Shown in pieces: positions 5,812-32,611 of a stretch of 46,341 nucleotides of DNA. The translations under genes and the position numbers were made by a program. Source of the stretch: Qipengyuania sp. (lineage in GTDB: Bacteria > Pseudomonadota > Alphaproteobacteria > Sphingomonadales > Sphingomonadaceae). The DNA lies in NCBI GenBank assembly GCA_019745075.1, contig JAIETR010000046.1, positions 1 to 46,341 on the forward strand, in the 5' to 3' direction. The notes under the pieces were generated by a model. The model worked only from the letters and a program-made list of their open reading frames with translations. It was not told where the DNA came from and made no database searches. Every line of letters starts with the position of its first letter. Position 1 is the stretch's first letter.

Positions 5812-5824
5812 GTTCGGCATTTAG

Positions 5825-6544: not shown

Positions 6545-6568
6545 GCCGCATCTGAACTAGCGAAAGGT

Positions 6569-10822: not shown

Positions 10823-11763
10823 ATGGGACAAGTTCTACACGGCAGCGCCAAGACCACGCACGCCATTCGAGGCGAGCTACAGCGATCGCAGGCTTCGGTC
10901 GCGCAGCTCGCGAAGCGCTTCGGGATCAACGAGAAGACGGTCCTGAAGTGGCGCAAGCGACAGTCGGTCGAGGACATGCCGATGGGGCCGAAGGAGCGCC
11001 GCAGCACGGTGCTGTCGCCGATGGAGGAGGCCGCGATCGTCGCGCTGCGCGTGCAAGCGCGGCTGCCACGGATATCGCGCTGAAAGACGTCATCCCGCAC
11101 CTGACGCGCTCATCCTTGCACCGCTGCCTCCAGCGTCACGGCATCTCCCGGTTGCCCAAGGCCGATCGCGAGAAGCCGAAGAAGTTCAAGGTGTACGAGA
11201 TCGGCTACTTCCACATCGACATCGCCGAACTGCGCCACGAAGGCTGCAAGGGCTTCCTCTACGTCGCTGTCGACCGCACCTCCAAGCTGGTGTTCGCCCG
11301 CATCTACCGCAGCGCCACCAAGCTCGCGGCGGCGGCCTTCCTCGAGGTTCTGGTCAAAACCGTGCTCTACCGGATCCACACCGTTCTCACCGACAACGGT
11401 GTCCAGTTCGTCCAGCTGGCTCGCGGCGGCAACCGGGGATGGCTCGTCCACATCTTCGAGCGCGTTTGCCGGGAGAACGGAATCGAGCACCGGCTCACCA
11501 AGCCCTATCATCCTTGGACCAACGGCCAGGCCGAGCGCATGGTCCGAACCATCAAGGACGCGACCGTCAAATCGTTCCATTACGCTTCGATCACCGAGTT
11601 GCGGCGCCATGTTCGCGACTGGCTCACCGCCTACAACTTCGCCAAGCAGCTCATGGCCCTCAGGTTCAAAACACCCTACGAAGCCATCGACGAACTCTGG
11701 AAATCAAAACCGGATGTCTTTATCGTCAAACCCAGCCATCACATGCTGGGACCAAACACCTAG
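10823..11763 (+). pseudogene. IS481-family transposase, frameshifted
   Basis: The first part (10823-11083) carries the helix-turn-helix (SVAQLAKRFGINEKTVLKW) and ends at a premature TGA after LPRISR. The rest reads on in another frame from about 11071 and carries the integrase core: YFHIDIAE (first Asp), TVLTDNGVQF (second Asp) and NGIEHRLT...HPWTNGQAERM (Glu). Compared with remembered homologues, which have about six residues between LP and the AL of the ALKDVIPHL-like motif, 8 bases remain where 18 are expected; a 10-base deletion would also give exactly the observed frame change. No slippery run is visible, so I call it inactive. The TAG stop (11761-11763) is supplied by the target duplication. 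Start ATG has a GGAGGG ribosome site. Confidence 0.85.
11736..11758. repeat. Right terminal inverted repeat of the IS
   Basis: Inverse partner of 10767-10789 with one mismatch; ends in ACA just before CCTAGG. Confidence 0.85.
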
Positions 11764-11764
11764 G
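11759..11764. repeat. Right target-site duplication of the IS (CCTAGG)
   Basis: Identical to 10761-10766. Its CTAG core provides the stop codon of the transposase on the plus strand and of hisF2 on the minus strand. Confidence 0.85.
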
Positions 11765-12566
11765 ACGGGGCGCCCTGCTGGTGGCGTTCCAATCCCTTGC
11801 GGCAGAGCGCCGCCTTGGCCGCCATGTCCGGGTAGTTTATGAGCACGGCCTTGCGAGCGCCCTTGAACACGAAGAGGCTCCCGGCCGCCGCGCCGACAAG
11901 CCCGCACTGGGCGATGAGCTCCTCGACATCGTCAAGCGATCCCGCGCCACCAAGGACGGTAAGAGGTACCCCGAGCTGTTCACGAAACTTCCTCGCCAGT
12001 TCGAGGTCGTAGCCCTGTTGCATGCCGTCGCGGTCGACCGAGTTGATCACGATCTCCCCCACCCCGGCCTCTTCCAGGCGTTTCGCGATATCCAGTGGCT
12101 TCACAGGGGCTCGGATCCGCGCATTTACAGTGACCACTTCCTCGGATTGATGGAACAAGGTGCTGTTCCGCTTGATGTCGATCACCGCCACCACGCTCTG
12201 CCGACCTAGGCGCTCGGCTATTCGCGTCACCAGGGTCGGATCATCGATCGCCGCCTTGCTGAGCGCGACCTTTTCCACTCCAAGGCTAATAATATGTTCC
12301 GCCTGTTCGACGGTCGTGATCCCGCCGCCGTAGCACAGCGGCATGCGGCACTCGGCCGCGAGGTTTTCTATCAGACGGTAATCCGGTTCGTGGTTCAGCG
12401 CGGTTGCATCAATGTCCACCGCGAACAATTCGTCGGCGTCCTTTTCGTTGAAGATCTTCACCGCATTGATGGGGTCGCCGACATATTTCGGACTATCGAA
12501 TCTGACGGTCTTAACCAATCCTCCATCGTGGATCAGCAAAGTCGGGATGATACGTGGCCGCAACAT
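11760..12566 (-). CDS. hisF2: HisF-like amidination protein (AglZ/HisF2/WbuZ type)
   Basis: A 268-residue (beta/alpha)8 barrel related to the cyclase half of imidazole-glycerol-phosphate synthase. In polysaccharide clusters these proteins pass ammonia from HisH to a WbpG-type enzyme that makes acetamidino sugars. Conserved barrel motifs include CYGGGIT (78-84), VDRDG and the second phosphate site GGAGS. Aligned with Thermotoga HisF, position 11 is Leu instead of the catalytic Asp, while Asp130 is kept (VAVIDIKR); this argues against a histidine-pathway role. It is the last gene of the minus-strand operon; 3 bases separate it from hisH. Its TAG stop lies in the IS target duplication, which restored the original stop. 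Confidence 0.88.
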   Translation of the reverse strand: MLRPRIIPTLLIHDGGLVKTVRFDSPKYVGDPINAVKIFNEKDADELFAVDIDATALNHEPDYRLIENLAAECRMPLCYGGGITTVEQAEHIISLGVEKVALSKAAIDDPTLVTRIAERLGRQSVVAVIDIKRNSTLFHQSEEVVTVNARIRAPVKPLDIAKRLEEAGVGEIVINSVDRDGMQQGYDLELARKFREQLGVPLTVLGGAGSLDDVEELIAQCGLVGAAAGSLFVFKGARKAVLINYPDMAAKAALCRKGLERHQQGAPS

Positions 12567-12569
12567 CCT

Positions 12570-13178
12570 CTAAAGCCTCGCAAAATTGCCAAGCAACTGC
12601 TGGCCGAAGTGATGACTTTTCTCGGGATGGAACTGGACCCCGAACACTTTGCCGCGACCCACCGCACAAGTGAAGTCGGCCCCATAGTGGGCCGAGGCAA
12701 TCACATCCTCGGGCGCCGCACTGTCGAAATAATACGAATGCAGGAAATAGAACCGCGAATCCTCGATGCCTTCGAACAAGCGATGCGGGGCACGGGACTG
12801 CACGGCGTTCCACCCCATGTGGGGGCTGGGCAGATGGCCACGCATAAGGTCGCGGATTGGACGTACGCGCCCAGGAATTAGGCCGAGTCCGCCGGCGACG
12901 CCCTCGTCGCTGCCATCAGCAAGCATCTGCATTCCGACACACACCCCGATGACATGGGTTTGGCCGCCCCGCGCCAGTTCATCAAGCGGCTGCCGGAAAC
13001 CGGAAAGTTCGAACTGGTGCATGGCGCGGTCGAAGGAGCCGACCCCAGGCAGGATCACATGGGTTGCCTCGACAATCTGGCCGGGATCAATCGCTCTTTG
13101 CGCCGCTATCCCTAAGCGCTTGTAAACATTGAGGAACGCTTGGACATTGCCGATCCCGTAATCGATGATCTGGATCAT
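12570..13178 (-). CDS. hisH: HisH-like glutamine amidotransferase for sugar amidination
   Basis: Class I glutaminase supplying ammonia to the HisF2/WbpG system. The 202-residue protein has the nucleophile elbow GVCVGMQ (Cys80) and the His184/Glu186 pair in GVQFHPEKS, completing the triad, plus the oxyanion region PGVGSF. I start at the ATG at 13178 (MIQIIDYGIGN), which overlaps the wbpG stop as ATGA and has a GAAGAGG ribosome site; 21 upstream in-frame residues are not conserved in character. As the cluster is polysaccharide-specific, histidine synthesis is unlikely to be its role. Confidence 0.88.
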   Translation of the reverse strand: MIQIIDYGIGNVQAFLNVYKRLGIAAQRAIDPGQIVEATHVILPGVGSFDRAMHQFELSGFRQPLDELARGGQTHVIGVCVGMQMLADGSDEGVAGGLGLIPGRVRPIRDLMRGHLPSPHMGWNAVQSRAPHRLFEGIEDSRFYFLHSYYFDSAAPEDVIASAHYGADFTCAVGRGKVFGVQFHPEKSHHFGQQLLGNFARL

Positions 13179-14329
13179 CGAAATAGCCTCTTCTCCAGCC
13201 CCAGCTTTTGCATGACCATTGCTCCGATGCCGATGGCCCACCGCTTATTCTTGTAGTCGTGATAGGTCTTGTTCGGTTCTTCGAAAATGGCCTGAAGATC
13301 GTCGATGCCGATGTTCAGTTTGTTGGCGACATATTCGAACTCACGCTCGAGAAAATGTTCGTCCATCTCCGGCCGGGCAATTCGCTCTAACGCATCCTCG
13401 CGACTCATCTGGCCGGTCATGACCAGGCTCGAGAAGTGTGCGCGCCGCTTCTCGTATCCGAACTTGCGGGGCATCCAGTAATCTTCATAGAATCGCGTGA
13501 AGCGGGATTCGTGGTGCTTGTGCTGGAATTTCTGCCAGCCGAAGCGCTCGCTTAGCTCCTTCTCGGCATCGGCCTTGATGTAGGGTACCAGGTTCAGCGG
13601 ACGGACGATCTGCATTCCCAGGACGCGCTGATAAAGGATCTTGTAGACCATTATATCGACGATCGGAAACGTCTCGAGAGGCCGGCTCCCGAACTTTCCA
13701 TGAATGTCTTCGATTAGGGTCTTGTCGATACCAGGATAGGCCCCCCATTCTTCGGGCTCTCGGCAGCACTCTGTGGAATAGTTTCCGCCCGTGATCACAT
13801 ATTTGATCCGGTTTTGCCTCGCGAACTTGTACAGTGCAGAAAAAAAGGCCGTGTCTTGGGGGAAATCCTGATCCGCGATCTGGGATTTCAGGAACGCCAG
13901 CTGAAGATCCTTCATTTCGCGCCAGTTTATGACCTCGGTGTGAAGCTCCATCTCGAGGCCGTCGACAAGCTTCTCGATATTGCCGACCGCCTGATCGGTG
14001 TTCCATCCCGCATCGACATGGAACAGCAGCGGGCGCAACTTCATTTTCTCGACCGCGACCAAGGTGGCGTAGCTGCTGTCCAGTCCGCCGCTCAGGCCGA
14101 TGATGCAGTCGAATTCCTTGCCCTTGCCGGCGGCGAGGATCTTGTCCGAGAGCTCTTGAAGCTCGCGCGCCCCGCGTTCATCGGTGTGCCAGCTCGGTGC
14201 GATGTTGGTCTCGAAATTCTGGCAGTATTCGCAGACCCCGTTCGCGTCGAATCGGATCTGCGGGTCTGAGGTATCCATGATGCAGCGCACGCAAATGCGA
14301 TACTCAGGCTCTTCGGATACTCGATGCAT
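13175..14329 (-). CDS. wbpG: N-acetyl sugar amidotransferase (WbpG/WbuX type)
   Basis: Predicted ATP-dependent enzyme that turns an N-acyl (acetamido) group of a nucleotide sugar into an amidine with ammonia from HisH/HisF2. The 384-residue protein has a zinc-type Cys13/Cys16 and Cys33/Cys36 set at the N-terminus, then a PP-loop (SGGLDSS, residues 80-86) and the family motifs HVDAGWNTDQAVGNIE, GGNYSTE and KILYQRVLG. Known examples act on ManNAc3NAcA (P. aeruginosa O5) or on L-FucNAc (E. coli O145). Both sugars, or a formyl version of the first, are made here, so the substrate is open. Confidence 0.9.
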   Translation of the reverse strand: MHRVSEEPEYRICVRCIMDTSDPQIRFDANGVCEYCQNFETNIAPSWHTDERGARELQELSDKILAAGKGKEFDCIIGLSGGLDSSYATLVAVEKMKLRPLLFHVDAGWNTDQAVGNIEKLVDGLEMELHTEVINWREMKDLQLAFLKSQIADQDFPQDTAFFSALYKFARQNRIKYVITGGNYSTECCREPEEWGAYPGIDKTLIEDIHGKFGSRPLETFPIVDIMVYKILYQRVLGMQIVRPLNLVPYIKADAEKELSERFGWQKFQHKHHESRFTRFYEDYWMPRKFGYEKRRAHFSSLVMTGQMSREDALERIARPEMDEHFLEREFEYVANKLNIGIDDLQAIFEEPNKTYHDYKNKRWAIGIGAMVMQKLGLEKRLFR

Positions 14330-16460: not shown

Positions 16461-17834
16461 TCAGCGATCCGGTACCCCCCGCAGCGTCGGCTCGGCTCGA
16501 GTGAGGAAACAAAATCGCAGTACAAGGATCCAGAACAATCCTCCGAAAGATGCGAGCACCGTGAATAGCGATCCGTTCGTAAGGGTGAGGGCAATCGGCA
16601 ACAGGATCAGAAGGGCCGCCTTCCCGACACCCCGTGAGACTGCGTCGAGGCCCCGCAGCAGCAGGCCGAGCAAAGCGAAGACGATCGGGATTCCGAGGAG
16701 GCCGAGGCTGGCAATGCCGTCCGACGCCAGAAAGCTGGCGTTTGCATTGAGCTTGGGGAAGTTGAAGTAGTCTTCGCCGATGATCACGCCGATTTCCGGG
16801 AAGCGGACATCGTTGGCGAAGGCGGTGGGGGGCGGAACGAAGAAATTAAGGCCTCGAACGTGGGAAAAGAAGGTATTTCCAATCGATTCGAAGAAGTTGA
16901 GATAATGGACGACGAGGGCTCCGGGCGTCAGGATCGTCCGCATTCCCAGGTACCAGGCCGAAAACTCGGCGATTTGCGATCGCTGGTAATTCCACACTGA
17001 GAAGAGCACGATCGCTGCCAGCGAAAGCGAGATGAATGCCAGCCCCCTAAGAAATCGCAGGCGGGTGCTGAGAACGATGTAAAGTACCACAATGAAGGCG
17101 GGATACATCAATCCTGCCTTTTCCGCCGTGATCATGTAGTTGGACACCGATCCGAAGAGCCCGAGAATGACGGCGAACGGCTTGCGGTAAACCAAGCCGA
17201 CCGCCAGCAAGCCGGTCGACAACACATATTGGGAATAGGTTTGCGCATAACCCTCGACGAAATTCTGCGCGGCCCCCCGCTCGCGCTGCTCGTAGATGCT
17301 GTCCAGAGCGACGAAGCTCATCACGCCGCCGAAACGCCAATAGAGGAAGGCGAGAAGGATCGCGGAAAGGGCCATCATCCCGGGGATAAGGAGGAAATGC
17401 GGCTTGCGCACTTCGACGACCTCCACCGGCCTCGCCGAGCGGCTCAGGAACCGCGCTCCGGCGTAGCCTATGACGATGAAGAACGAGGTCAGCGTCGGCT
17501 GGCCCGAATAGCGCGGATCCATGTAGAACAGGCAGATTATCGACGGGACGACAACGAAGAGATAGACAATCAATAGGATCAAAGTGGATGGAGACCGGAT
17601 CTCCGGTGGACAGAGCCACGAGGCGGAGGCAATAAAGAACACCACCTGTAGCCCCCCGACGAGGCCGGGCGACGAAAAACTGTAGCCGTAGAACGGCCAG
17701 ACGATCGCCGCATAATCTCGCAAGAGAACGAAAAGTGCGAACGAATAGACGGCCATGCACGTCAGGCGCATCGCGACGAGTAGCGCCGTATGCTTTCGCT
17801 GCGATGGAGCTGCAAGGAATGGCAACGACGTCAT
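16461..17834 (-). CDS. wzy: Oligosaccharide repeat-unit polymerase (Wzy-like)
   Basis: The 457-residue protein has about 11-12 hydrophobic segments and a large loop (about 290-370) with SIYEQRERGAAQ and RGLNFFVPPPTAF. Low similarity between families is normal for Wzy; assignment rests on topology and on the position next to wzx. The start ATG at 17834 overlaps the wzx stop as ATGA. A hand-counted line in the gene (16741-16800) is about 52% GC, lower than the flanking core genes, as is usual for wzy. Confidence 0.78.
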   Translation of the reverse strand: MTSLPFLAAPSQRKHTALLVAMRLTCMAVYSFALFVLLRDYAAIVWPFYGYSFSSPGLVGGLQVVFFIASASWLCPPEIRSPSTLILLIVYLFVVVPSIICLFYMDPRYSGQPTLTSFFIVIGYAGARFLSRSARPVEVVEVRKPHFLLIPGMMALSAILLAFLYWRFGGVMSFVALDSIYEQRERGAAQNFVEGYAQTYSQYVLSTGLLAVGLVYRKPFAVILGLFGSVSNYMITAEKAGLMYPAFIVVLYIVLSTRLRFLRGLAFISLSLAAIVLFSVWNYQRSQIAEFSAWYLGMRTILTPGALVVHYLNFFESIGNTFFSHVRGLNFFVPPPTAFANDVRFPEIGVIIGEDYFNFPKLNANASFLASDGIASLGLLGIPIVFALLGLLLRGLDAVSRGVGKAALLILLPIALTLTNGSLFTVLASFGGLFWILVLRFCFLTRAEPTLRGVPDR

Positions 17835-19138
17835 GTGTTCGCCTTCGCCGGTATCGCTCCACGTGACCTGAAGGCGAGTCGAAGTATGACGACGCTGTAG
17901 ATCAGGTAAAAAATCGCGCCGGAAACGGCGAACGCTTCGCTCACGAATCGACTGTCGAAATAAGCGGCGGCGACGATAGCTCCCGTTCGGAAGAGCAGGC
18001 CCCCGACCTGGAGAACCATTCCGATGCCGAGATGCCCGGTGATGCTCAGCACGCTCGAGACCGGGCTCGACACGAATTGCAGCAGCAACCAAGGAGTCAT
18101 CCAGCTAACGAGAAGTCCGGCGCGTGACCACTCCGGACCGAACAGCAGCGGGAACAGAAACGGGGCGGCAAGTCCCAGCGCTATGAGCAGCGGGAAGCCG
18201 GCGATCGCGAGGCTGCGCATCGTCTGGACGGTAAAGGCGTGAAGCTGTCCGTTCCGGGCCCGTTCGGGCGCCTGTGACAGGAAAACCTGTGCGGCCGAGG
18301 TGCCGAACAACGCCATCGGCGCCTGCACCACCATCATGGCCAGGGTGACCTGACCCAACTCTGCGGTTCCGGCCACCAGGCCGATGAGAAAGATCGGCAA
18401 CTGGATCGCGGCGCTGTTTGCAAGCGCCTCCCACACCGAGAATTGCGGGAAGGCGCGATATCGCGAAAGGGTTGATCGCAGCGCCGTCCACCGAAAGCCC
18501 GGCGCCAGTCCGCGAACGTCGGCCAGCATGGATTTCGCCATAAAGGCGGCGCCGGCCGCGCTGGTGAGGATTAGCCCGACGATCAGCCCGATGACACCCG
18601 ATCCCAGGGCGCCAAGAATGACCTGGGCGGCCGCCGCAGCGCCCGATTGCGAAACGCGCGAAGCGGCCAGCAGATTGTAGCCCTTGCGGCGGATAAACCA
18701 GTTCTGCATCGCGGAGAAAACGCCCAAGGCGAGCAGGTTGACCGGTATGAGCCAGAGGTAGGGCGCGATTCCGTGCAGGTTCTCGCCGCCCAGAAGCGCC
18801 GCCGGAATGGCTGCCAGGATGGCCGCGGTCAGTACGGCAATCGCCAACGTGGCGAGGATCGCAAGGCTGAAGACCTCGAAAGCGCGCTCGTCTTGCTCCG
18901 GTAGCGCGATGGCGACGTCCAGCCTGAGGCAAACCGCCACCGCCAAGACATAGATGACCGCCGAGTACATCGCGAACACGCCGAACTCGGACGGAGTATA
19001 GAGACGCGCGAGTACCAGCAGCGCCGCGCCGGTGATCCCGTGGCCGATCAGAGTGCCGCCGGCGAGCTTGGCTACCGGTCCCAGGAAACCATTCGGGTCG
19101 CGCAATCGCTCGAGGAAGGCTCCTGCCGAACGGCGCAT
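17831..19138 (-). CDS. wzx: Lipid-linked repeat-unit flippase (Wzx-like)
   Basis: MATE/MOP-superfamily flippase with about 12 hydrophobic segments over 435 residues; the opening VAKLAGGTLIGHGITGAALL and RLYTPSEFGVFAM are typical of the polysaccharide-transporter family. It moves the undecaprenyl-linked repeat unit to the periplasmic face. I prefer the ATG at 19138 (MRRSAGAF, TGAGG just upstream) over an in-frame TTG at 19153, which would overlap wbpE. It is followed by wzy with a 4-base overlap. Confidence 0.88.
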   Translation of the reverse strand: MRRSAGAFLERLRDPNGFLGPVAKLAGGTLIGHGITGAALLVLARLYTPSEFGVFAMYSAVIYVLAVAVCLRLDVAIALPEQDERAFEVFSLAILATLAIAVLTAAILAAIPAALLGGENLHGIAPYLWLIPVNLLALGVFSAMQNWFIRRKGYNLLAASRVSQSGAAAAAQVILGALGSGVIGLIVGLILTSAAGAAFMAKSMLADVRGLAPGFRWTALRSTLSRYRAFPQFSVWEALANSAAIQLPIFLIGLVAGTAELGQVTLAMMVVQAPMALFGTSAAQVFLSQAPERARNGQLHAFTVQTMRSLAIAGFPLLIALGLAAPFLFPLLFGPEWSRAGLLVSWMTPWLLLQFVSSPVSSVLSITGHLGIGMVLQVGGLLFRTGAIVAAAYFDSRFVSEAFAVSGAIFYLIYSVVILRLAFRSRGAIPAKANT

Positions 19139-19142
19139 GGCC

Positions 19143-20231
19143 TCAGACTGCAATGGCGCGTTGCAGCGCTTCGACGACTTCTGCCTGTTCGGTCGGCCGG
19201 ATATAGGGGTGAAAAGGTAAGCTTAGCACCTCTTCGGCCGCGCGGTCGCCGTGCGGTAGCGAGACGCTGTCATCCGCCACCGCCGGCTGCCGGTTGAGGG
19301 GCAGCGGATAGTGGACGGTGGTGGGAATGCCCGCGTCTGCCAGTGCCTCTCGGACCGCATCTCGGTTCGGTACGCGAATGGTGTACTGGGCCCACGCCGA
19401 GCGGTTCCCCTCCGCCACGACAGGTGGCGCGATCGCTGTTCCGGAGAGCGCGCGATCATAGCGTTCGGCAGCATCCTGGCGGGCCGCGAGCTCGGCCTCG
19501 AAGACCTCGAGCTTCGCCAGCAAGACGGCGGCTTGCAGAGTGTCGAGGCGACTGTTCACGCCGACGCGCACATGGTGGTAGCGCCGCGACTGGCCATGCC
19601 GGGCGATTTGCCGGATGACGGTCGCAAGCTCCTCGTCCCGCACGAAAATCGCACCTCCGTCACCGTAACAGCCCAGTGGCTTGGAGGGGAAAAAGCTGGT
19701 GCAGGCAATTCGGCTGAGATTGCACGAACGCTTGCCGTGCTGGATCGCGCCGAAGCTTTGCGCTGCATCTTCGATCACGGCGAGATCATGCGTCGCGGCA
19801 ATCGCGTTGAGCGCATCCATGTCCGCGCATTGCCCATAGAGCGAGACGGGGATGATGGCCCGGGTGCGCGGTGAGATCGCCGCTGCGATCGTCGCGGGAT
19901 CAACGGTGAAGGTGACCGGATCGATATCGACGTAGACCGGGCGCGCGCCGAGCAGGGCGCTGACTTCCGCGGTGGCGATGTAGCTGAAGGCCGGCGTGAT
20001 GATTTCGTCGCCGGGGCCGATCCCCAGCGCCATCAGGGCGATCTGAAGCGCGTCGGTGCCGTTGGCGACCGAAATGCAATGCTGGGCCCCGGCAAACTCG
20101 GCGAGCCTTGTTTCTAGTTCCTCGACCTCCGGCCCCAGGATGTATCGTCCGTGCGCGAGGACCGCGGCGATCCGCCGGTCCATTTCCAGTCCTATACGCT
20201 TCTGCTGCGCCGCCAGATCGACGAAATCCAT
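19143..20231 (-). CDS. wbpE: UDP-2-acetamido-2-deoxy-3-oxo-glucuronate aminotransferase (WbpE)
   Basis: PLP-dependent DegT/DnrJ/EryC1/StrS enzyme giving UDP-GlcNAc-3-amino-uronic acid. The 362-residue sequence matches WbpE over its whole length as I remember it: LRHGQYILGPEV-like start, CISVANGTDALQIALMALG, IEDAAQSFGA, and CTSFFPSKPLGCYGDGGAIF with PLP-lysine Lys184, then ARHGQSRRYHHVRVGVNSRLDT (cited in part). It lies 3 bases from the formyltransferase gene, which I think uses its product. Confidence 0.92.
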   Translation of the reverse strand: MDFVDLAAQQKRIGLEMDRRIAAVLAHGRYILGPEVEELETRLAEFAGAQHCISVANGTDALQIALMALGIGPGDEIITPAFSYIATAEVSALLGARPVYVDIDPVTFTVDPATIAAAISPRTRAIIPVSLYGQCADMDALNAIAATHDLAVIEDAAQSFGAIQHGKRSCNLSRIACTSFFPSKPLGCYGDGGAIFVRDEELATVIRQIARHGQSRRYHHVRVGVNSRLDTLQAAVLLAKLEVFEAELAARQDAAERYDRALSGTAIAPPVVAEGNRSAWAQYTIRVPNRDAVREALADAGIPTTVHYPLPLNRQPAVADDSVSLPHGDRAAEEVLSLPFHPYIRPTEQAEVVEALQRAIAV

Positions 20232-20234
20232 TTG

Positions 20235-21350
20235 TCAGCGTTCCCTGCGCGCCATGAGCCAAGCCAGCATCTGCTCATCGCCGGCTGCGCGGACATAGTG
20301 AAAGATGTCGCATCCAGAAACGTCGCAACGGTCGAGTCGCGCTCCGGCGGCCAGCAACGCGGACAGGACTGGATAGTCGGACGCCGCCTGGTGGAGCGAC
20401 TGTGTCTTAGCATACATCAGCGGGGTGGTGCCGTTCGCGTTCGCGCCATCGGGATCGGCTCCCTTGGCCAACAGCATTTTCACCGTTTCTAGGTGCTGTT
20501 TGAAACTGGCGCAGATGAGCGGCGACCAGCCCTTTTCGTTCCGATGCTCGATGAGAGCCGGCATCTGCTCAAGAATGGCGCCGGCCGTGGTGGTATCACC
20601 AGCCTCGCAAGCGCGCACCAGCTCTTCTCCCAATTGCCTGACATACTGTGCGTTACGCCATGAGGCGAAGCGCGCGATCGCATTGCGTTTCTCGTCCGGC
20701 AGCATCGGTTGGTTCTTGCGCTCGCGCAGGATCGGAGTCCGGCGGATCGTCCCCGTTTGCAATTCCTGCAGCACGCGGTGCAGTGCGATCAGTTGGGATT
20801 GGTAGGAGTTCTCGGCCACGATCTCGGGAGTGTCCTCGGGACCGATTGGGGTTTGTTCGAAGAGGATTTCCTCTCCTGCGTCTACCCGGCCATCGATGAA
20901 ATGCGCGGTCGCTCCCGCCGCGACGCCCTTGGTAATGGTGTAATAGAAGGCGTCCAAGCCGGAAGTCGCAGGGAGTATCCCGGGATGGATGTTGATGATG
21001 CCGTCGGAGAAGAGATCAATAATCGCCGGCTTGAGGATGCGCGCGCCCGAGATCAGCGCGATGCGTGCGCCCGATTGCGAGACCAGGTCCGAGATCGCCG
21101 TGACTTCTCCGTGCTCGCATGGCAGGAAGGCAAACCCGAGCGCGGCACAGACCCGTTCGGTATCGGCTGGGGAGCGGCGGCGCAGCGAGGTGGAAAAATA
21201 GCTCGTCGGGTCGGAGTGGACCAATTCGACCTTCGGTGCTGCGATAACTGTCACGCTGTGAAAGCCGTCCAGTCGCAGCGACAAGAGAAAGTCCTGGGTC
21301 TTCCGGTGAGGAAAGGCGTAGGCGAAAACCAGCAAGGGCGGCTTGCTCAT
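20235..21350 (-). CDS. Sugar N-formyltransferase with C-terminal ankyrin repeats
   Basis: Residues 1-215 form a methionyl-tRNA-formyltransferase-like fold using N10-formyl-tetrahydrofolate. The catalytic triad is visible as Asn120, His122 (INIHPGILP) and Asp157 (DGRVDAGEE). Residues about 243-370 hold three to four ankyrin units, the clearest being GWSPLICASFKQHLETVKML at 274 and GTTPLMYA at 307. The ankyrin-fused sugar formyltransferase QdtF of Providencia acts on a dTDP-3-amino sugar (from memory). Here the gene occupies the place of the acetyltransferase wbpD, between wbpB (ATGA overlap) and wbpE, so the likely substrate is UDP-GlcNAc3NA. A 4-amino sugar is the alternative. Confidence 0.88.
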   Translation of the reverse strand: MSKPPLLVFAYAFPHRKTQDFLLSLRLDGFHSVTVIAAPKVELVHSDPTSYFSTSLRRRSPADTERVCAALGFAFLPCEHGEVTAISDLVSQSGARIALISGARILKPAIIDLFSDGIINIHPGILPATSGLDAFYYTITKGVAAGATAHFIDGRVDAGEEILFEQTPIGPEDTPEIVAENSYQSQLIALHRVLQELQTGTIRRTPILRERKNQPMLPDEKRNAIARFASWRNAQYVRQLGEELVRACEAGDTTTAGAILEQMPALIEHRNEKGWSPLICASFKQHLETVKMLLAKGADPDGANANGTTPLMYAKTQSLHQAASDYPVLSALLAAGARLDRCDVSGCDIFHYVRAAGDEQMLAWLMARRER

Positions 21351-22285
21351 GGAGCTGCTCTCGCCATCGGATGCATGTCAGGGCCCGGCGCCGCGATCGC
21401 TCGTCGGATCTGGGCGACCATCTCGATCGCCGCTCTGCTCTCGCTGAGGCGGAACCCGCGACCGGCGAGGATTTCCTCGTAGCTTCGCGTGTGGAGATCG
21501 GTGAAGCCACCGGAGAACTCGACTTCCTGCCCGTCGATCGTGATCGAGCGATAGGTCCGCTGACCCTGGTCGCGCCATATCCGCGGGACATCCGCGACCT
21601 CGAGCGACATGAACCAGCGTACGCGCGCCTGCTCGAGCTCCAGGTAGCCGGCGCTGCGGGTCGGTTCGGCCAGGTGGACGACGTTCTCCTGCGTTGCCCC
21701 GAACAAATGGTGCAGCATATCGAAGAAATGCACCCCGATGTTCGTCGCGATACCGCCGGACCGGGCGGGATCCGCCTTCCAGCTCTTGAGGTACCAGTTG
21801 CCCCGTGAGGTCACGTAGGTCAGTTCGATCTCGTGCTTGCCCCCCGTTGCCTGTGAAACCTGCTCCTTGAGGGCCGCGATGGCCGGGTGCAGGCGCAGCT
21901 GGAGGATGGTCGAGACGCGGCGACCGGTAAGCTCCTCCAGGGCCACGAGTTCGTCGAGCTCGTGCGGCTCCAGCACCAGTGGCTTCTCGCAGATCACATC
22001 GGCGTCGGCGCGCAGCCCGTGGCCGACATGCGCGACGTGAAGATGGTTGGGCGAGGTCACCGCCACGTAGTCGATCCCGCGGCCCGTCTGGGCGGCCCAG
22101 GCGAGATACCTGTCGTATTCTTCGAACTGCGTGAAGAACTCGGCTTCGGGGAAATGGCTGTCGAGGATGCCGACCGAATCGTTGATGTCATAGGCGACCG
22201 CGAGAGCGTTGCCCGTCTCGGCGATCGAGCGCATGTGTCGCGGGGCGATGTATCCGCCGGCGCCGATCAGGGCAAATCGCTTCAT
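21347..22285 (-). CDS. wbpB: UDP-GlcNAc-uronate 3-dehydrogenase (WbpB)
   Basis: Gfo/Idh/MocA oxidoreductase that oxidises C3 of UDP-GlcNAcA. The 312-residue protein opens with the NAD fold IGAGGYIAPRHM, and carries CEKPLVL (Lys101) and ATNIGVHFFDM (His186), the catalytic pair of the WbpB/WlbA family, plus RGNWYLKSWK. Match to remembered WbpB is close throughout. WbpB recycles its NADH through WbpE's glutamate partner, so the adjacent wbpA-wbpB-wbpE set is functionally complete to the 3-amino sugar. Confidence 0.93.
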   Translation of the reverse strand: MKRFALIGAGGYIAPRHMRSIAETGNALAVAYDINDSVGILDSHFPEAEFFTQFEEYDRYLAWAAQTGRGIDYVAVTSPNHLHVAHVGHGLRADADVICEKPLVLEPHELDELVALEELTGRRVSTILQLRLHPAIAALKEQVSQATGGKHEIELTYVTSRGNWYLKSWKADPARSGGIATNIGVHFFDMLHHLFGATQENVVHLAEPTRSAGYLELEQARVRWFMSLEVADVPRIWRDQGQRTYRSITIDGQEVEFSGGFTDLHTRSYEEILAGRGFRLSESRAAIEMVAQIRRAIAAPGPDMHPMARAAP

Positions 22286-22295
22286 TGCCGGTCCC

Positions 22296-23618
22296 TCAGG
22301 CCTTGATCACGTTGGCGGCAGGATCGCGATAGACGCCGCGGCTGTCGATGATCAGCGAGGCGTGTTCGGCGATCATCGCATAATCGAACGCGTCGTGGTC
22401 GGTCGCCACGATCGCCGCATCGAATCTCGCGAGGGTATCCGGCGTAAGCGCGACGCTGGAGAGATCGAAGCGATGCTCGCGCATCTTGGGAAAGCGCGGA
22501 ACGTGGGGATCCGAATAGGCGAGCTCCGCCCCATGGTCGCGAAGCAGCTCCATGATTGCGACCGCAGGAGATTCGCGCATGTCGTCGACGTTCTTCTTGT
22601 ACGCGATCCCGAGCACCAGCACCTTGCTGCCGCGCACCGCGCGCCCCTCTGCGTTCAGACCCAGCACGAGCTTGTCGAATACATAGCGGGGCATCGCCTG
22701 GTTGATCTCGCCGGCGAGCTCTATGAAGCGCGTGTGAAGCTGGAATTCGCGCGCCTTCCAGGTCAGGTAGAACGGATCGATCGGAATGCAGTGCCCGCCC
22801 AGGCCGGGGCCAGGGAAATAGGCCGTAAAGCCAAAGGGTTTGGTCGAGGCCGCCTCGATGACCTCGAAAATGTCGATGTCCATCGCATCGCAGACGATCT
22901 TCATTTCGTTGACCAGTCCGATGTTGACCGCGCGATGGATGTTTTCCAGCAGCTTGGTCATTTCGGCGGTCTTCGTCGAACTCACTGGCACGATCCGGTC
23001 GATGATCTGGCCGTACAGCGCCTTGCCGACTTCGAGACACTTTGCGGTCGCGCCCCCGACCACCTTGGGGATGGTATGCGTGGTGAAGGCGACATTGCCC
23101 GGATCCTCGCGCTCGGGCGAATAGATCAGGAAGACGGTTTCTCCGACCACGAGGCCCGAGGAGGTGATCCGCGGCGCGACCTCCTCGTCGGTGGTTCCCG
23201 GGTAAGTCGTGCTTTCGAGCGAAACCAGCTGGCCAGGGCGCAGATAAGGGGCGATCGCCTCGCAAGTGTCGGTTACGAAGCGGAGGTCCGGCTCCCGGTA
23301 CTTGTTGAGCGGCGTAGGCACGCAGATAAGCACCGCATCGCATTGGGCGATGGCAGCGAAATCGGTCGTGCAGCGCATCCCGCGATGGTTGGCGGCGGCG
23401 ATAAGGGCTTCGTCGATATGCTCGATGGTCGATACACCGTCATTTAGTCGCGCGACCTTGTCCGCATCGACATCGAAACCGATCACGCCGAAGCCTTTTT
23501 CGCTGCAGCGCAACGCCAGCGGCTGGCCGACATAGCCCATGCCGACGATGCCGATAACCGCCTCGCAAGAGGCGATCCGGTTCAGCAGGCTGTGAAACGC
23601 ATCGGAGCCGGATGTCAT
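22296..23618 (-). CDS. wbpA: UDP-N-acetylglucosamine 6-dehydrogenase (WbpA type)
   Basis: Oxidises C6 of UDP-GlcNAc to the uronic acid in two steps. The 440-residue protein has the N-terminal NAD fold ([15 protein letters not shown]), the family motif [15 protein letters not shown] and catalytic Cys277 in [13 protein letters not shown], with the UDP-binding C-terminal domain ([17 protein letters not shown]). This motif set separates it from UDP-glucose dehydrogenases. It is 10 bases ahead of wbpB. A WecC-like ManNAc specificity cannot be excluded, given wecB at 32612. Confidence 0.9.
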
Positions 23619-23689: not shown

Positions 23690-24862
23690 TTACCGCGCCT
23701 TGTCCAGAACTTCGGCAATCACGGCGCAGTCGCGCGCCAGTTCACTGTCGTCGATGGTCGGATGGGTCAGGAACATGATGCTGCATTCTCCCAGCGCTCG
23801 CGCGACCGGCAGTCGCTCGCGCGGCCGCCATGGCGTGCCCTCGAACGCCTTCTCGAGATAGACTTCGGAGCACGTTCCCTGGAACACCTTGACCCCCCGT
23901 CGCGCGCATTCCTCGATGAACCAGTTCCGTCCGAAGCCCTTTGCCTCCCAGCTTTCGCCGACATAACCGTAGAGCCGGTAATAAGCGTGCGTGTGCCCCG
24001 GCTGGGGGGCGGGAACCCGGACGTATTCCGGATATCGACGCAGCACTTCGGCGATGCGTCCCGCGATCTCGGTCCGTCGCCGCGTCCATTCGGCCATCCT
24101 GCGCAGCTGGATTCGACCGATCACGGCCTGCATTTCCAGCATTCGCCAATTGGTCCCAAAACTGTTGTGCAACCAGCGGAAGCCCGGCGGGTGCGCAGTG
24201 TTGTAGACCGCCTCCCAATCCTTGCCATGATCCTTGTACGACCACATTCGCGACCACAGCGCTTCATCCGCGGTGGTCACCATCCCTCCTTCACCGCCCG
24301 TGGTCATGATCTTGTCCTGGCAGAAGGACCACGCCCCCACATGGCCGAAGCTGCCAACCGACTGCCCGTCGATGCGTGCGCCGTGCGCCTGCGCGCAGTC
24401 CTCGACAACCTTGATGTCCGCGCGCGCGGCCAGGGCCATGATGGCGGGCATGTCGCAGGGCCATCCGCCGAGATGAACCGGAATGATGGCGCGCGTGCGC
24501 GGCGTCAGGACCGCCGAGATCGTCTCCGGGGTGATATTGCCGCTATCGGCGCCAACATCCGCGAATACGGGGGTCGCCCCTGCGTTGACGACCGTGGAAA
24601 TCGAGGCAATGAAGGTGCGCGGCGTCACCACGACCTCGTCGCCGGGGCCAATCCCGAGAGCCTCGAGGGCAAGGTCCAGCGCGACCGTGCCGTTGGTGAG
24701 CGCGATCGCACAGGGCGAGCCGGCCCATTCGGCGAACTCCCGCTCGAACGCCCGTGTCTCGTCGCCCGTCCAGTAATTGACCCGGTTCGAGGCCAGGACC
24801 GCTGCGACGGCGTCGACTTCCTCCTGGGTATAGGCAGGCCAGCCGGTGTTGGTCAGAGCCAC
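23690..24862 (-). CDS. DegT/DnrJ/EryC1/StrS aminotransferase, sugar unknown
   Basis: PLP-dependent sugar aminotransferase of 390 residues; PLP-lysine is Lys184 ([19 protein letters not shown]). It is not a duplicate of wbpE: the motifs [19 protein letters not shown] and the [11 protein letters not shown] loop belong to the 4-amino-sugar type branch. The start is a GTG at 24862 behind a GAGGTAGGA ribosome site, 4 bases after wbuB. A 71-base gap separates it from wbpA. A 4-keto sugar from the CapD-like enzyme is a reasonable substrate, but nothing in the sequence proves it. Confidence 0.82.
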
Positions 24863-24866
24863 GATC

Positions 24867-26117
24867 CTACCTCACTTGCATGGTCGCGGGGTTCCGGTCC
24901 CTGCGCGCCGAAGTGGCGGCGGCATTTACGGCGCGCAGCGTCTGCTCCATAGCTTGCGCGGCGCCAAACGTCTCGCGGTAGAAGTCCTTGCCGCGGCGTC
25001 CTGCGGCGAGGCGCTCCTCGGGCGATAACCGGGCCCATTCCGCGATCGCGTCGGCCATGGCTTCCGTGTCCTCGGGAGCGGTCACGATCGCCGCCCCGGA
25101 GCATGCGAGCAGCGCCGCGGCCTCGCCGGCAATGCCTGCGACAATGGGCTTTCCGCAAGCGAGATAGTGCTGTGCCTTCGAGGGCATGGTAAATTCGTAG
25201 AGCGGATCGCCCTTCAAATGAAGGATCAGGATATCGGCCTGATCGAAGATGCGGTCCATCGTGGAGCGATCGACCGGAGCGTGCAGGACCAGCGGTGTTT
25301 CGGGATTGGCCTGGAGGTGTCTTTCAAGCGCATCGCGCTCGATGCCCGATCCAAAGACATGGAAGCGCAAGTCCGGCAGCGATCGGGCGGCCAGCTCGGC
25401 CGCGCGGACCACGTGCAGCAGCGACTGCGCCTGGCCGATGTTGCCGCCGTAAATCAGACTGGGATGTCCAGCCGGGCGTTCGGCCGGCGCAGCGGACTTC
25501 TGCCCGCCTTCTTGGTAGGTCGCCCAATTGTAGATGCGGGTCACCCGTTCGGGTTCTGCTCCGTGAGCGAGAATGCGATCGCGCATACCCTCCGTCTGCG
25601 CCACTATCCCGTCCGCCGCGCGATAGACGAAGCGACACAGCGCGCCCAAGGACTGGCCCAACCACTTGGGCAACATCCCCGACGCCAGCACGCTGTCGGG
25701 CCACAGATCCTGAACGTCTACAATCACCCTGTACCGGTGAAACCAGCGCGCGAGGATCGCAGCAAGCGCAGGCGTGAGCGGAGGATGGTAGACATAGACA
25801 GCGTCGTAACGCCGCCCGCGGGCCAACAAGAAGAGCAAGCAGGATAGAAAGAAGCTGCCGTAATTGAGCGCGCGGCCTACGGTGGAGCCGTCGTGCGAAG
25901 GGTAAAGCCAGAGTCTGTGCACGGCGCGCCCGCTCGCCGTGGTCATGCGCCAGTAGGGCCTCAGGCGGTGGCCGGCGTAGAGCTTGCCCCCCGGATAGTT
26001 GGGGAACCCCGTCGCCACTTCGACCTCGTGGCCCTTGGCAGCCAACATGTCCGCGAATTGTTCCCCCTTGAACGCAGGCTCGGGCTCAAACCATTGGGTC
26101 AGGTAGAGAATTCGCAT
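24867..26117 (-). CDS. wbuB: L-FucNAc-type glycosyltransferase (WbuB-like, GT4)
   Basis: GT-B transferase of 416 residues. Typical WbuB features are MRILYLTQWFEPEP, GFPNYPGGKLY, YVYHPPLTPALA, DVQDLWPDSV, and the donor-site region FTMPSKAQHYLACGKPIVA. WbuB directly follows fnlABC in E. coli O26 and related loci and transfers L-FucNAc, and the same order is kept here. I use the ATG at 26117, inside the TGATG overlap with fnlC. Confidence 0.85.
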   Translation of the reverse strand: MRILYLTQWFEPEPAFKGEQFADMLAAKGHEVEVATGFPNYPGGKLYAGHRLRPYWRMTTASGRAVHRLWLYPSHDGSTVGRALNYGSFFLSCLLFLLARGRRYDAVYVYHPPLTPALAAILARWFHRYRVIVDVQDLWPDSVLASGMLPKWLGQSLGALCRFVYRAADGIVAQTEGMRDRILAHGAEPERVTRIYNWATYQEGGQKSAAPAERPAGHPSLIYGGNIGQAQSLLHVVRAAELAARSLPDLRFHVFGSGIERDALERHLQANPETPLVLHAPVDRSTMDRIFDQADILILHLKGDPLYEFTMPSKAQHYLACGKPIVAGIAGEAAALLACSGAAIVTAPEDTEAMADAIAEWARLSPEERLAAGRRGKDFYRETFGAAQAMEQTLRAVNAAATSARRDRNPATMQVR

Positions 26118-27277
26118 CAGACGAAATCGCGGTGCCTGATACCGTCCCATATGTTGGACAGGCGTGCCGTCCCCAGGATGAGCTTGACGACTCGTTCCGC
26201 GGTGTTGGTAATGCGATAGTCGGCCGGAACGGCCGAAGGGTCGGTCGTAGCGCCCCGCCCGGCCTTGCCGTGCAGCCGGGTAACCAAACCGACGGCTTCC
26301 AGGATCGTGTCGGGCGAAATTCCAGTCTGCACGATGGCGCCCGTATCGAGCGCTTCCGGACGCTCGATAGCGTCCCGCGGGGTGATTGCGGGGAAATTGA
26401 GGATGCTCGCCTCTTCGGCGATCGTTCCGCTGTCGCTAACGGCACAGAATGCCTTCATTTGCAGGTGGTTGTAATCGTGGAAGCCGAACGGCTTGAGATC
26501 GCGGACGCGCGGATCGAGCGCCAGCCCCTCCAGCGCCTCGAGGCGCTTGCGGGTGCGGGGATGGGTCGAGACAATCACCGGAAGGTCGAAGGTGGCCGCG
26601 AGGCGATTGAGGGCCTCGACGAGCTGGCGCAGGCGCTCCTTGCTGTCGACGTTCTCCTCGCGGTGCAGCGAGACGACGAAATAGCGCCGTGGGTCCAGAC
26701 CGAGCCGTGAGAGGATGTCGGACGACTCGATCTCCTCGCGGTAATGCGCGAGCACTTCGAACATGGGCGATCCGGTGAGGTAGATACGGCGGTGATGAAT
26801 GCCCTCGGCAAGGAGATGGCGGCGTGCGTGCTCGGTATAGACAAGGTTGAAATCGCTGATGTGATCGACGAGCTTGCGGTTGGTCTCTTCGGGGACATTC
26901 CGATCGAAGCTCCGGTTGCCCGCTTCCATGTGATAGATCGGGATCTTCATGCGCCGCGCCATGATCGCGGCGATCGCGCTGTTGGTGTCGCCGAGGACCA
27001 GCAGAGCATCGGGTGGGTGCGCCTGAAGCTCGCGTTCGGCCGCGATCAGGATGCCGCCCAGAACAGAACCGAGCGTGGTGGTGTCGACACCCAGGAACGT
27101 ATCGGGCTTGCGCACGCCCAGATCGGCGAAGAAGACCTCGTTGAGCTCGTAGTCCCAGTTCTGGCCGGTATGCACGAGGCGGTGCTCGCTACACTCGTCG
27201 AGCAAGGCCATCGTGCGGCTCAGCCGGATGATTTCCGGCCGGGTTCCCAGTATCGTGGTGACTTTCAACCGGCCCAT
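26117..27277 (-). CDS. fnlC: UDP-2-acetamido-2,6-dideoxy-hexose 2-epimerase (FnlC/WbjD)
   Basis: Last step to UDP-L-FucNAc. The non-hydrolysing 2-epimerase fold is shown by GTRPEIIRLS, GDTNSAIAA, HMEAGNRSFDRNVPEETNRK and SDSGTIAEEAS. The EAGNRSFD and LRVKxP-type details fit FnlC/WbjD more than WecB, of which a separate copy lies at 32612. The 386-residue length is normal. Two bases separate it from fnlB. Confidence 0.92.
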   Translation of the reverse strand: MGRLKVTTILGTRPEIIRLSRTMALLDECSEHRLVHTGQNWDYELNEVFFADLGVRKPDTFLGVDTTTLGSVLGGILIAAERELQAHPPDALLVLGDTNSAIAAIMARRMKIPIYHMEAGNRSFDRNVPEETNRKLVDHISDFNLVYTEHARRHLLAEGIHHRRIYLTGSPMFEVLAHYREEIESSDILSRLGLDPRRYFVVSLHREENVDSKERLRQLVEALNRLAATFDLPVIVSTHPRTRKRLEALEGLALDPRVRDLKPFGFHDYNHLQMKAFCAVSDSGTIAEEASILNFPAITPRDAIERPEALDTGAIVQTGISPDTILEAVGLVTRLHGKAGRGATTDPSAVPADYRITNTAERVVKLILGTARLSNIWDGIRHRDFV

Positions 27278-27279
27278 GC

Positions 27280-28395
27280 TCAGACCGGCTCCGCGTAGGT
27301 GTCGGGCACTGCGGGATCGAACATGCGATGGGTCCAGAAGAAGGTGACGACGTCGCGGTCGCCCAGATTTTCGATGTTGTGGGTGTGCAGGGGCAGTTGG
27401 TCGATCGCGACCGGGCGATCCCCCGACACCCGGAACTCATGCACTTCGTCGGTCAGCACCTTCCGAATGCGGATCACCGCTTCGCCGGCCACCACGACGA
27501 AGCGTTCGCACAAGGCCAGATGGAAGTGATCGCCGCGCTTCTCGCCCGGTAGGGTCGTCGAAAGGAAGGTGTGACTGGCATTGCCGCCTTTCGCGGTTTC
27601 GAACAGCCTGCCGCGCCGGTCTGCCCGGACATCGAGCGGGAACGGATAATGCGTTGGGTAGGCACCCGCTCGCAGGGTGTTGAACAACGCCAGATCGAAC
27701 GGGTCGGAAAGGTCCGGGAAGGTGTTGGCCGTATAGAGCGCGTGAAACTCGCGCAGTGTGGCGTAGAGACCCGCGATCGTCATCTCCCGACCCGCCGGTG
27801 CGAGCGTGCCCGACTGGCCGGAGATCGCCGCCTCGATGGCCGTGACGGCCGCGGTGCCGGCATGAAGGAGCGAAACCCGGCCCTCCGGATTGACGGTGGC
27901 CTCTTCCCCCCGCCAAAGTTGATCGATCAGCGTCGCGGTCACGTTGTTGTAATACGGGCGCGCGCATTCGCCGAAGATGTGCGGCAGGATCAGGTCGGTG
28001 TATCCCGAAGCGAAGTCCGCCAGAATCTCACCGGCCTCCCGCTTGGAACGTCCATAGGGCGTGTCGCGAACCGCGTGGGTCGAATTAGCGTAGACGATAT
28101 GGGGCTCCGCGCCCGCCGCCTCGCACCCGTCGATCAGCGCTGCGGCGATCGCGGGATTGGCCGCTTCCACCGCCGCATCGGACCTGCGGTTGGCGCCGGC
28201 GAAGTGCAGCACCGCCTCGACTCCGGCAAGCGCGCCGGCGAGAGCATCGCGATCCTCGAAGGTCGCCCGGTCGATGACGACGAGCTCGTGCGCGTCGGGT
28301 TCGGAGCGAAAGCGCGCCGCGCAATTGCGCGCGTGGATGTGGCCGGCGGCATGCCACCCCAACAGTCCCTTCGCGCCGGTAACCGCGATCTTCAT
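27280..28395 (-). CDS. fnlB: Bifunctional 4-keto reductase/epimerase with cupin tail (FnlB/WbjC)
   Basis: Middle enzyme of the UDP-L-FucNAc pathway. Residues 1-250 are an extended SDR domain with TGAKGLLG and Tyr114/Lys118 (TPYGRSK). Residues about 260-371 are a cupin-like domain (GEKRGDHFHLALCERFVVV, LPLHTHNIENLG, both with metal-type histidines), as found in WbjC. Starts by ATGA overlap after fnlA. Confidence 0.92.
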   Translation of the reverse strand: MKIAVTGAKGLLGWHAAGHIHARNCAARFRSEPDAHELVVIDRATFEDRDALAGALAGVEAVLHFAGANRRSDAAVEAANPAIAAALIDGCEAAGAEPHIVYANSTHAVRDTPYGRSKREAGEILADFASGYTDLILPHIFGECARPYYNNVTATLIDQLWRGEEATVNPEGRVSLLHAGTAAVTAIEAAISGQSGTLAPAGREMTIAGLYATLREFHALYTANTFPDLSDPFDLALFNTLRAGAYPTHYPFPLDVRADRRGRLFETAKGGNASHTFLSTTLPGEKRGDHFHLALCERFVVVAGEAVIRIRKVLTDEVHEFRVSGDRPVAIDQLPLHTHNIENLGDRDVVTFFWTHRMFDPAVPDTYAEPV

Positions 28396-29417
28396 CGCTG
28401 GCCGGGAGCGGCACGTTCCAGCGCCGCGCGGATTTCGGGGAGCGAAAGCAGCAGCGCCTTGATCGCATCCAGATCGAGCCGGGCGGTGTTGTGTGAGTGG
28501 AAATCCTCCGCCAGTTCGTGTTCGGTGTCGCCTTCGCTGAAATAGCCGCTGTAATTGAGGTCGCGCTCGTCGAGTTGGAGCCGCCAGTAGTCGCCCATGT
28601 TCTCCCCGGTCGCCAATTCCTGCCGGGTCGCGAGGGTTTCGAAAAGCTTCTCGGCATGGCGCCAGCCGATCACCCGGACCTCGTGGTCGGGGGCGCCGAA
28701 CAGCTGCGTGAGCGCGGCGGCGAGATTGCCGATGGTCGAAGCAGCGGACTTACGAATAAACAGGTCGCCCTGCCCCGCATGGCTCAGGGCGAACCGCACC
28801 AGATCGACGCTGTCGCGAAGCGGCATGAGGAAACGCGTCATTGCCGGTTCCGTGATGGTGATCGGCCGGCCCTTCGTGATCTGTTCGACGAACAGCGGAA
28901 TCACACTCCCACGCGAATACATGACGTTGCCGTAGCGCACGCAAGCGACGATTGTGCGGCCGCCTTGCCCCAGCTCGCGCGCAGCGGACTGGGCCAGTTT
29001 CTCCATCATCGCCTTGGACATTCCCATCGCATTGATAGGATGCACGGCCTTGTCCGTCGAAAGACAGATCACGCGGCCGACGCCGGCTGCGATGGCCGAA
29101 CGGATGACGTTTTCCGATCCGAGGACGTTGGTCCGGACCGCCTCGAGCGGGAAGAATTCGCACGAGGGCACCTGCTTCAGCGCGGCGGCATGGAACACCG
29201 CCTCGACCCCGGCCATGGCCCGATCGACGCTATCGCGGTCGCGGATATCGCCAATGTGATAGCGCACGCGCTTATCGCCCAGCTGGTTGCGAAGGGCGTC
29301 CTGCTTCTCCTCGTCGCGGCTCAGAATCCGCACTTCATCGACGCCGTCGTCGAGCAGGGCGCGTAGCATGGTTTTTCCGAAGGACCCGGTGCCTCCGGTA
29401 ATCAACACCGAATTCAT
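28392..29417 (-). CDS. fnlA: UDP-GlcNAc 4,6-dehydratase/epimerase (FnlA/WbjB)
   Basis: First enzyme of the UDP-L-FucNAc pathway and first gene of the minus-strand operon. SDR protein of 341 residues with TGGTGSFGK and active site CLSTDKAVHPINAMGMSK, where Met131 and Lys135 replace YxxxK as in FlaA1/WbjB soluble dehydratases. HxAAALKQVPSCEFFP-type residues confirm the family. The operon promoter should lie in 29418-29546, between fnlA and the fabI stop; I see no clear consensus boxes there. Confidence 0.93.
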   Translation of the reverse strand: MNSVLITGGTGSFGKTMLRALLDDGVDEVRILSRDEEKQDALRNQLGDKRVRYHIGDIRDRDSVDRAMAGVEAVFHAAALKQVPSCEFFPLEAVRTNVLGSENVIRSAIAAGVGRVICLSTDKAVHPINAMGMSKAMMEKLAQSAARELGQGGRTIVACVRYGNVMYSRGSVIPLFVEQITKGRPITITEPAMTRFLMPLRDSVDLVRFALSHAGQGDLFIRKSAASTIGNLAAALTQLFGAPDHEVRVIGWRHAEKLFETLATRQELATGENMGDYWRLQLDERDLNYSGYFSEGDTEHELAEDFHSHNTARLDLDAIKALLLSLPEIRAALERAAPGQR

Positions 29418-32413: not shown

Positions 32414-32611
32414 CGGGCGTGTTAGCTAGGTGGAACGCCTTCGCGACGCAAGTTCCGCCAGCGCTTGCCTGCTGTCCTCGAAGAACGCATGACCGACACG
32501 CGCGCCCACGCCACGACACTATGACAACGATATGAGACCACTACATTTTTGGACCTTGCTCGCCGTGGCGATTCGTGGATTCCCTGCCGTCTTGGAGCAC
32601 GCGGTGGGGCT

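Follow-up and report, generated by a model that had tools for sequence, protein, structure and literature searches.

We describe here a surface-sugar gene cluster of Qipengyuania sp., contained in a 46,341-nucleotide stretch of DNA (the window), in which a predicted sugar N-formyltransferase with C-terminal ankyrin repeats (FT) stands, by gene order, in the operon slot of the acetyltransferase WbpD. Our interpretation, to which we give a probability of roughly 0.78, is that this is a Wbp pathway with its fourth enzyme exchanged, wherein FT would formylate the 3-amine of the 2,3-diamino uronic acid nucleotide UDP-GlcNAc3NA to yield UDP-GlcNAc3NFoA in the gluco form. In this scheme WbpA would oxidize UDP-GlcNAc at C6, WbpB would oxidize C3, and WbpE would place an amine on C3 to give UDP-GlcNAc3NA. 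FT would then move the formyl group of N10-formyl-tetrahydrofolate onto the C3 amine, a step for which WbpD would use the acetyl group of acetyl-coenzyme A (acetyl-CoA). The substrate, cofactor, product and gluco configuration of this pathway are those that we infer. In the open-access literature, searched by titles, abstracts and word counts and with subscription journals mostly missing, there was no report of a formyltransferase replacing WbpD or of a 3-formamido-2,3-diamino uronic acid. The genes concerned are the following:

22296-23618, minus strand: wbpA, UDP-GlcNAc 6-dehydrogenase, catalyzing the first pathway step (NDP-sugDHase, 420 bits)
21347-22285, minus strand: wbpB, 3-dehydrogenase of the Gfo/Idh/MocA family (384 and 351 bits to solved WbpB, against 42 for the next family)
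20235-21350, minus strand: FT, predicted sugar N-formyltransferase with C-terminal ankyrin repeats, 371 amino acids, in the WbpD slot (PF00551, ankyrin match, fold, and N120, H122 and D157)
20640-21350, minus strand: catalytic part of FT, residues 1-237, with a YxFPHRKTQD signature at residues 11-20 (alignments A1, A2 and A4)
20238-20627, minus strand: ankyrin part of FT, about residues 242-371 (Ank_4; alignment to the ankyrin parts of QdtF and FdtF)
19143-20231, minus strand: wbpE, 3-aminotransferase of the DegT family (solved WbpE, 529 bits; an unnamed DegT entry, 504; next, 334)

The window spans the entire contig C22 in an assembly of 82 contigs and 3.02 Mb, rated 93.8% complete. Within it, wbpA, wbpB, FT and wbpE are consecutive in that order on the minus strand, with an ATGA common to the stop of wbpB and the start of FT and a 3-base gap (CAA) from the stop of FT to the start of wbpE. 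An earlier first-pass annotation had given this gene order, with the same coordinates, overlap and gap, and it is borne out by the positions of the open reading frames (ORFs) and by family matches, which place WbpA, WbpB and WbpE of the Wbp pathway all in the window. The WbpA protein is 63-69% identical to that of eight other loci with wbpB (L032, L059, L066, L067, L068, L070, L071 and L073).

By its domain, active-site triad and predicted fold FT is classified as a sugar N-formyltransferase with putative activity on a nucleotide amino sugar. It has a Formyl_trans_N domain (PF00551, 55.2 bits; cut-off 26.1) and an ankyrin match over the cut-off (Ank_4, 55.5 bits). Asn120, His122 and Asp157, which we take to be the catalytic residues and which had previously been described as an intact triad, are indeed present and are invariant in alignments A1 (12 rows) and A4 (15 rows), as also in A2. 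The predicted structure shows the formyltransferase fold, with the top match by Z being the ArnA formyltransferase domain (19.7), tied with Met-tRNA formyltransferase (19.6), in a structural-match list (VIA-align) in which the ankyrin part is barely tested; the model has low confidence at residues 311-346, within the ankyrin part. As is predicted for FT, the ArnA domain has a UDP-sugar acceptor (UDP-L-Ara4N), but it acts on a pentose 4-amine and is 16-18% identical to FT over the fold.

QdtF of Providencia and FdtF of Salmonella O60 are likewise formyltransferases with C-terminal ankyrin repeats; they act on dTDP-3-amino sugars, and a 3-amine acceptor is presumed for FT as well. The ankyrin part of FT aligns with theirs over 113-123 chain residues. 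Its role may be in substrate handling, by analogy to that of the QdtF repeats. In contrast, the catalytic parts are only remotely alike: the profile from A1 scores QdtF at 42 and FdtF at 40 bits (about 100 of 239 positions), below many other formyltransferases. The setting also differs, being that of a UDP-uronic acid in the window and of dTDP-6-deoxy-sugars in QdtF and FdtF; among the scanned window proteins, which are part of the window ORFs, none passed the RmlA/RmlB or ketoisomerase models. The parallel with QdtF drawn in the first-pass annotation is clear in the ankyrin part only; the catalytic part comes from a family with 13 other aligned members, all devoid of ankyrin repeats. As clear likeness is limited to the ankyrin part, we did not adopt FT as a QdtF orthologue.

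The assignment of the slot comes from a comparison of other loci with wbpB. We looked for WbpB in two sets of genomes, 337 from the class of the window and 398 from its phylum, and obtained matches in 14 and 18 of them respectively, the window's included. Excluding the window and counting the genome G452 once, this gave 30 other genome loci (two of them in G960), to which seven PLSDB plasmid records were added for a total of 37. Thirty of these have WbpD, 28 in the slot and two further along the cluster, while FT is seen in two and neither in five. Among the genome loci alone, WbpD is within about 1 kb of wbpB in 22 and further along in two (L075 and L076); the sole FT case is G297 (L034/L047), where an FT gene cut by the contig end lies beside wbpB and precedes it. 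On six of the seven plasmids with WbpB an acyltransferase of 190-208 amino acids, scored at 262-311 bits by a WbpD profile, is situated between the Gfo/Idh and DegT genes; on the seventh, from Ruegeria sp. SCSIO 43209, an ankyrin FT is in that position. This profile, built from nine loci, replaced a crude hexapeptide motif score that was weakly calibrated. G452, whose Wbp proteins are 59-67% identical to those of the window, has wbpA (63%), wbpB (59%), WbpD, one further ORF, wbpE (67%) and wzx (33%). The prevalence of WbpD in the slot (30 of 37 loci) and the Ruegeria FT lend support to the earlier suggestion that FT would act in place of WbpD on UDP-GlcNAc3NA. In L053-L055 (one genus), L077 and L078, wbpE comes after wbpB and no WbpD or FT was seen within the available sequence; the 3-amine may stay free there or receive an acyl group from a different enzyme. 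The genome of L078, G960, carries WbpD in its other cluster.

A WbpD-type acetyltransferase was not found in the window or in the 93.8%-complete assembly, from which an unassembled wbpD may be missing. The Hexapep model (PF00132) had nine matches over the assembly, none of them on the window contig: these were located on C6 (CysE and GlmU-like), C38 (DapD-like), C63 (a 162-residue CatB/Vat-like protein) and C21 (a match without family assignment). A WbpD query (196 amino acids, from G549) returned just two weak matches over the assembly, the 162-residue C63 hexapeptide protein at 25 bits, which is nearest to acetyltransferases of the CatB/Vat kind, all below cut-off, and a protein at 22 bits that is CysE (PDB serine acetyltransferases, 117 bits). 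The query itself works, since in two other genomes it picks up true WbpD, with scores of 248 and 204 bits. The searches of the window thus agree with the first-pass annotation, which had seen no WbpD there; it had also named a wbpD homologue nearby outside the window as part of what would count against the proposal, and none was found across the assembly.

The closest counterpart to the window is the Ruegeria plasmid, on which an ankyrin-fused FT of 368 amino acids lies between wbpB and wbpE, its start again overlapping the wbpB stop by ATGA. Identity to the window is 60% for WbpB, 48% for the catalytic part of FT, 42% over 123 residues for the ankyrin part and 66% for WbpE; a WbpA 68% identical to that of the window is encoded about 88 kb away on the same plasmid. 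There is no WbpD match on the plasmid, with the chromosome not being covered. Ankyrin-fused FTs are rare in the sampled genomes: at E 1e-25 only the window matched in 190 class genomes (Ruegeria FT as query) and 398 phylum genomes (profile A1), and 296 order genomes had only one other match to the catalytic part at E 1e-15, a partial one (60 bits).

Beyond these two, FT belongs to a wider family. A scan of genome contigs gave 16 loci. Two were dropped, L018 because it matched in the ankyrin part only and L019 because its match was short, leaving 14 with the FT catalytic part from Verrucomicrobiota, Deinococcota, Planctomycetota, Bacteroidota and a UBP7 bin; the FT lengths of these loci are 230-308 amino acids. 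The 13 other members in A2 (L007, close to L006, was left out) are 26-37% identical to the window FT, which is closer to this other-phylum family than to solved formyltransferases retrieved by sequence, and they have 10-17 residues in place of its 130-residue ankyrin part. Ankyrin-less FTs lie within wbp-like operons of Verrucomicrobiota, Deinococcota and Bacteroidota. Across the 15 bacterial FT loci (these 14 and Ruegeria) the pairing of FT with Gfo/Idh/MocA and WbpE-type DegT genes is beyond chance: a Gfo/Idh/MocA oxidoreductase adjoins FT in 14 (the fifteenth, L011, is cut off there), a WbpE-type DegT gene adjoins it in 11, WbpA (44% or more) is present in nine, and WbpD was seen in none within the available sequence. 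Because the constant partner of FT is the set that makes UDP-GlcNAc3NA, FT is predicted to act on this nucleotide, and this is our main argument as to the substrate.

In quickly built trees, with 34 rows for WbpE and 32 for WbpB, whose supports are moderate with several forks open, the WbpD/FT state needs at least four changes each, and the five rows nearest to the window by path are of the WbpD type in both. Loci whose copies are short or distant are absent from the trees, as are L007, L008, L010, L011, L054, L055 and the six WbpD plasmids. Given these repeated changes and the greater proximity of FT to the other-phylum family, it seems that FTs of one family have joined Wbp enzymes whose ancestry is of the WbpD type. 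We consider it somewhat better than an even bet that there is a class of formyl-ending Wbp pathways in several phyla (the window lineage with Ruegeria, Verrucomicrobiota, Deinococcota and Bacteroidota), which is marked by the YxFPHRKTQD family and arose several times by exchange of WbpD, the version in the window and Ruegeria having gained its ankyrin part separately from QdtF; marine-type phages would carry members of this formyltransferase family too.

Strong WbpD matches occur elsewhere in the genome in two of the 13 FT carriers checked (G297 and G973; L008 and L010 were outside the genomes searched for WbpD). G973 has a separate WbpD followed by a WbpE-like gene. In G297, the genome with FT beside wbpB, another contig (L091, G297:C55) has WbpD followed by a HisH-like gene, and perhaps both acyl forms are made in one strain. 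The Thermaceae locus L005 reads wbpA-wbpB-FT-wbpE, and L005 and L016 each carry an additional FT-like gene (55 and 43 bits). A viral collection yielded 27 loci, four examined by ORF list and the rest by neighbor labels; phage contigs L128, L130, L133 and L136 (IMG/VR) encode FTs of the same family, 33-40% identical, with the YxFPHRKTQD signature or, in L136, a variant of it.

The Wbp pathway leads to UDP-GlcNAc3NAcA or UDP-ManNAc3NAcA in P. aeruginosa PAO1 and T. thermophilus, with WbpA, B, E, D and I being reported in the latter, according to PMC10622841. The window is alike in having WbpA, WbpB and WbpE relatives in one operon with UDP-GlcNAc3NA as the predicted intermediate, and differs in having FT instead of WbpD and in that no WbpI-type epimerase is seen in the window. 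P. gingivalis and T. forsythia have a Wbp/Vim linking sugar for which, according to PMC7468200, WbpD acts and VimE/VimA are proposed to swap the acyl group for an amino acid. There too a Wbp product would have altered N-acyl groups, whereas in the window the acyl-transfer enzyme itself would have been exchanged.

Other readings have to be weighed against the remaining genes of the cluster:

23690-24862, minus strand: second DegT sugar aminotransferase, source of a rival substrate (7l7x, 523 bits; next, 173 bits)
2304-4343, plus strand: 4,6-dehydratase that we take to be WbpM/PglF-like, with no NCBIfam model over its cut-off; probable partner of the second aminotransferase (Polysacc_synt_2, 373 bits, and CoA_binding_3)
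26117-29417, minus strand: wbjB-wbjC-wbjD (fnlABC) set for UDP-L-FucNAc (FnlA scores best, with 427 bits below its cut-off of 730; a WbcJ-type reductase has 159 bits against a cut-off of 500; CapG, 397 bits; order as in L115-L119)
11760-14329, minus strand: amidotransferase cassette of HisF2, HisH2 and WbuX/WbpG, assigned to L-FucNAc (NF038364 and TIGR03573 over cut-off; neighborhoods)
17831-19153, minus strand: Wzx-type flippase (PF13440)
16461-18092, minus strand: probable polymerase, Wzy (position and length only; no family match)

The minus-strand order is wbjB-wbjC-wbjD, a GT4-like glycosyltransferase, the second DegT gene, wbpA, wbpB, FT, wbpE, the flippase, the probable Wzy, a methyltransferase, a glycosyltransferase, WbuX/WbpG, HisH and HisF; an IS481-type transposase (10948-11763; 213.6 bits, just below the cut-off of 224) adjoins the hisF end at the cluster edge. 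On the plus strand, 2304-10652 encodes the dehydratase, proteins of O-antigen-ligase type, for export and of chain-length/kinase kind, one protein that matches no family, and an initiating transferase (Bac_transf).

The main alternative, which was not weighed in the first-pass annotation, is that FT formylates the 4-amine of a sugar made by the dehydratase and the second aminotransferase, with the GlcNAc3NA amine being free or acylated by an unseen enzyme. Both of these genes are in the window, and many known sugar formyltransferases act on 4-amines, going by structure titles. Several points weigh here against a 3-amine substrate: no enzyme that would acylate the 4-amino sugar was seen in the window, with no Hexapep match on the contig, so that unless the 4-amine stays free FT is a candidate for acylating it; in L123, the relative whose aminotransferase of this kind is closest (57%), a hexapeptide gene directly precedes the aminotransferase gene; and the phage FTs of L128 and L133 are near DNA polymerase, that of L133 also having a glycosyltransferase next to it and a clamp loader nearby, and the available sequence of both contigs shows no wbp genes. 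However, FT is coupled to wbpB and wbpE and not to the second aminotransferase, the 33-kb Ruegeria stretch has a WbpE-type DegT only, and a second DegT gene is present in just one of the 15 FT loci (L016), which also has a second, different FT. We therefore regard the 4-amine alternative as unlikely. The dehydratase and this 4-aminotransferase-like DegT, on a contig with no hexapeptide acetyltransferase, may make a free-4-amine sugar.

It is decidedly unlikely that the product is epimerized at C2 to the manno form, ManNAc3NFoA, the ManNAc analogue that had also been suggested. The window does have two epimerase-family genes, but that at 26117-27277, part of the wbjBCD set, scores 397 bits as CapG versus 213 as WbpI-type, and that at 32549-33754 scores 407 bits as WecB-type versus 134 as WbpI-type. 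Since neither gene thus looks like one of the WbpI type, with the rest of the genome not searched for WbpI, the gluco form is likelier by these scores.

A conversion of the C3 formamido group to formamidino by the WbuX/HisH/HisF cassette, which is in the same cluster and whose HisF is above the cut-off for the AglZ/HisF2 model (357 bits against 310) and below that for WbuZ (271 against 300), is very improbable and was set aside, as in five relatives (L115-L119; WbuX 58-59% identical) the cassette is directly followed by wbjB-wbjC-wbjD, with no wbpB-wbpE pair labeled in the stretch. Because of this adjacency the cassette most likely targets L-FucNAc. WbuX had 20 matches (19 besides the window) and 14 neighborhoods were fetched; the other nine, including the closest (L114, 76%), show no full wbjBCD set and do not discriminate between the targets. 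L117, one of the five, also holds WbpA and a WbpD-like gene. In the window the cassette and wbjBCD, adjacent in the five relatives, are at opposite cluster ends with the wbp block between them. In L057 (15218-19777) a formyltransferase-like gene (60 bits), preceded by a DegT gene, lies directly before WbuX, HisH and HisF, and wbpB-wbpE of the same genome keep WbpD.

If FT formylates UDP-GlcNAc3NA as proposed, then FT and WbpD, sharing one slot, should both accept this nucleotide, and the formyl route would draw on folate and not on acetyl-CoA. The glycans of these lineages are, to our knowledge, hardly studied, and the proposal predicts that GlcNAc3NFoA is a surface sugar in them. Which of two unrelated enzymes fills a single operon slot would then decide the acyl group that 2,3-diamino uronic acids carry, and the surface sugar would therefore be predictable from sequence.

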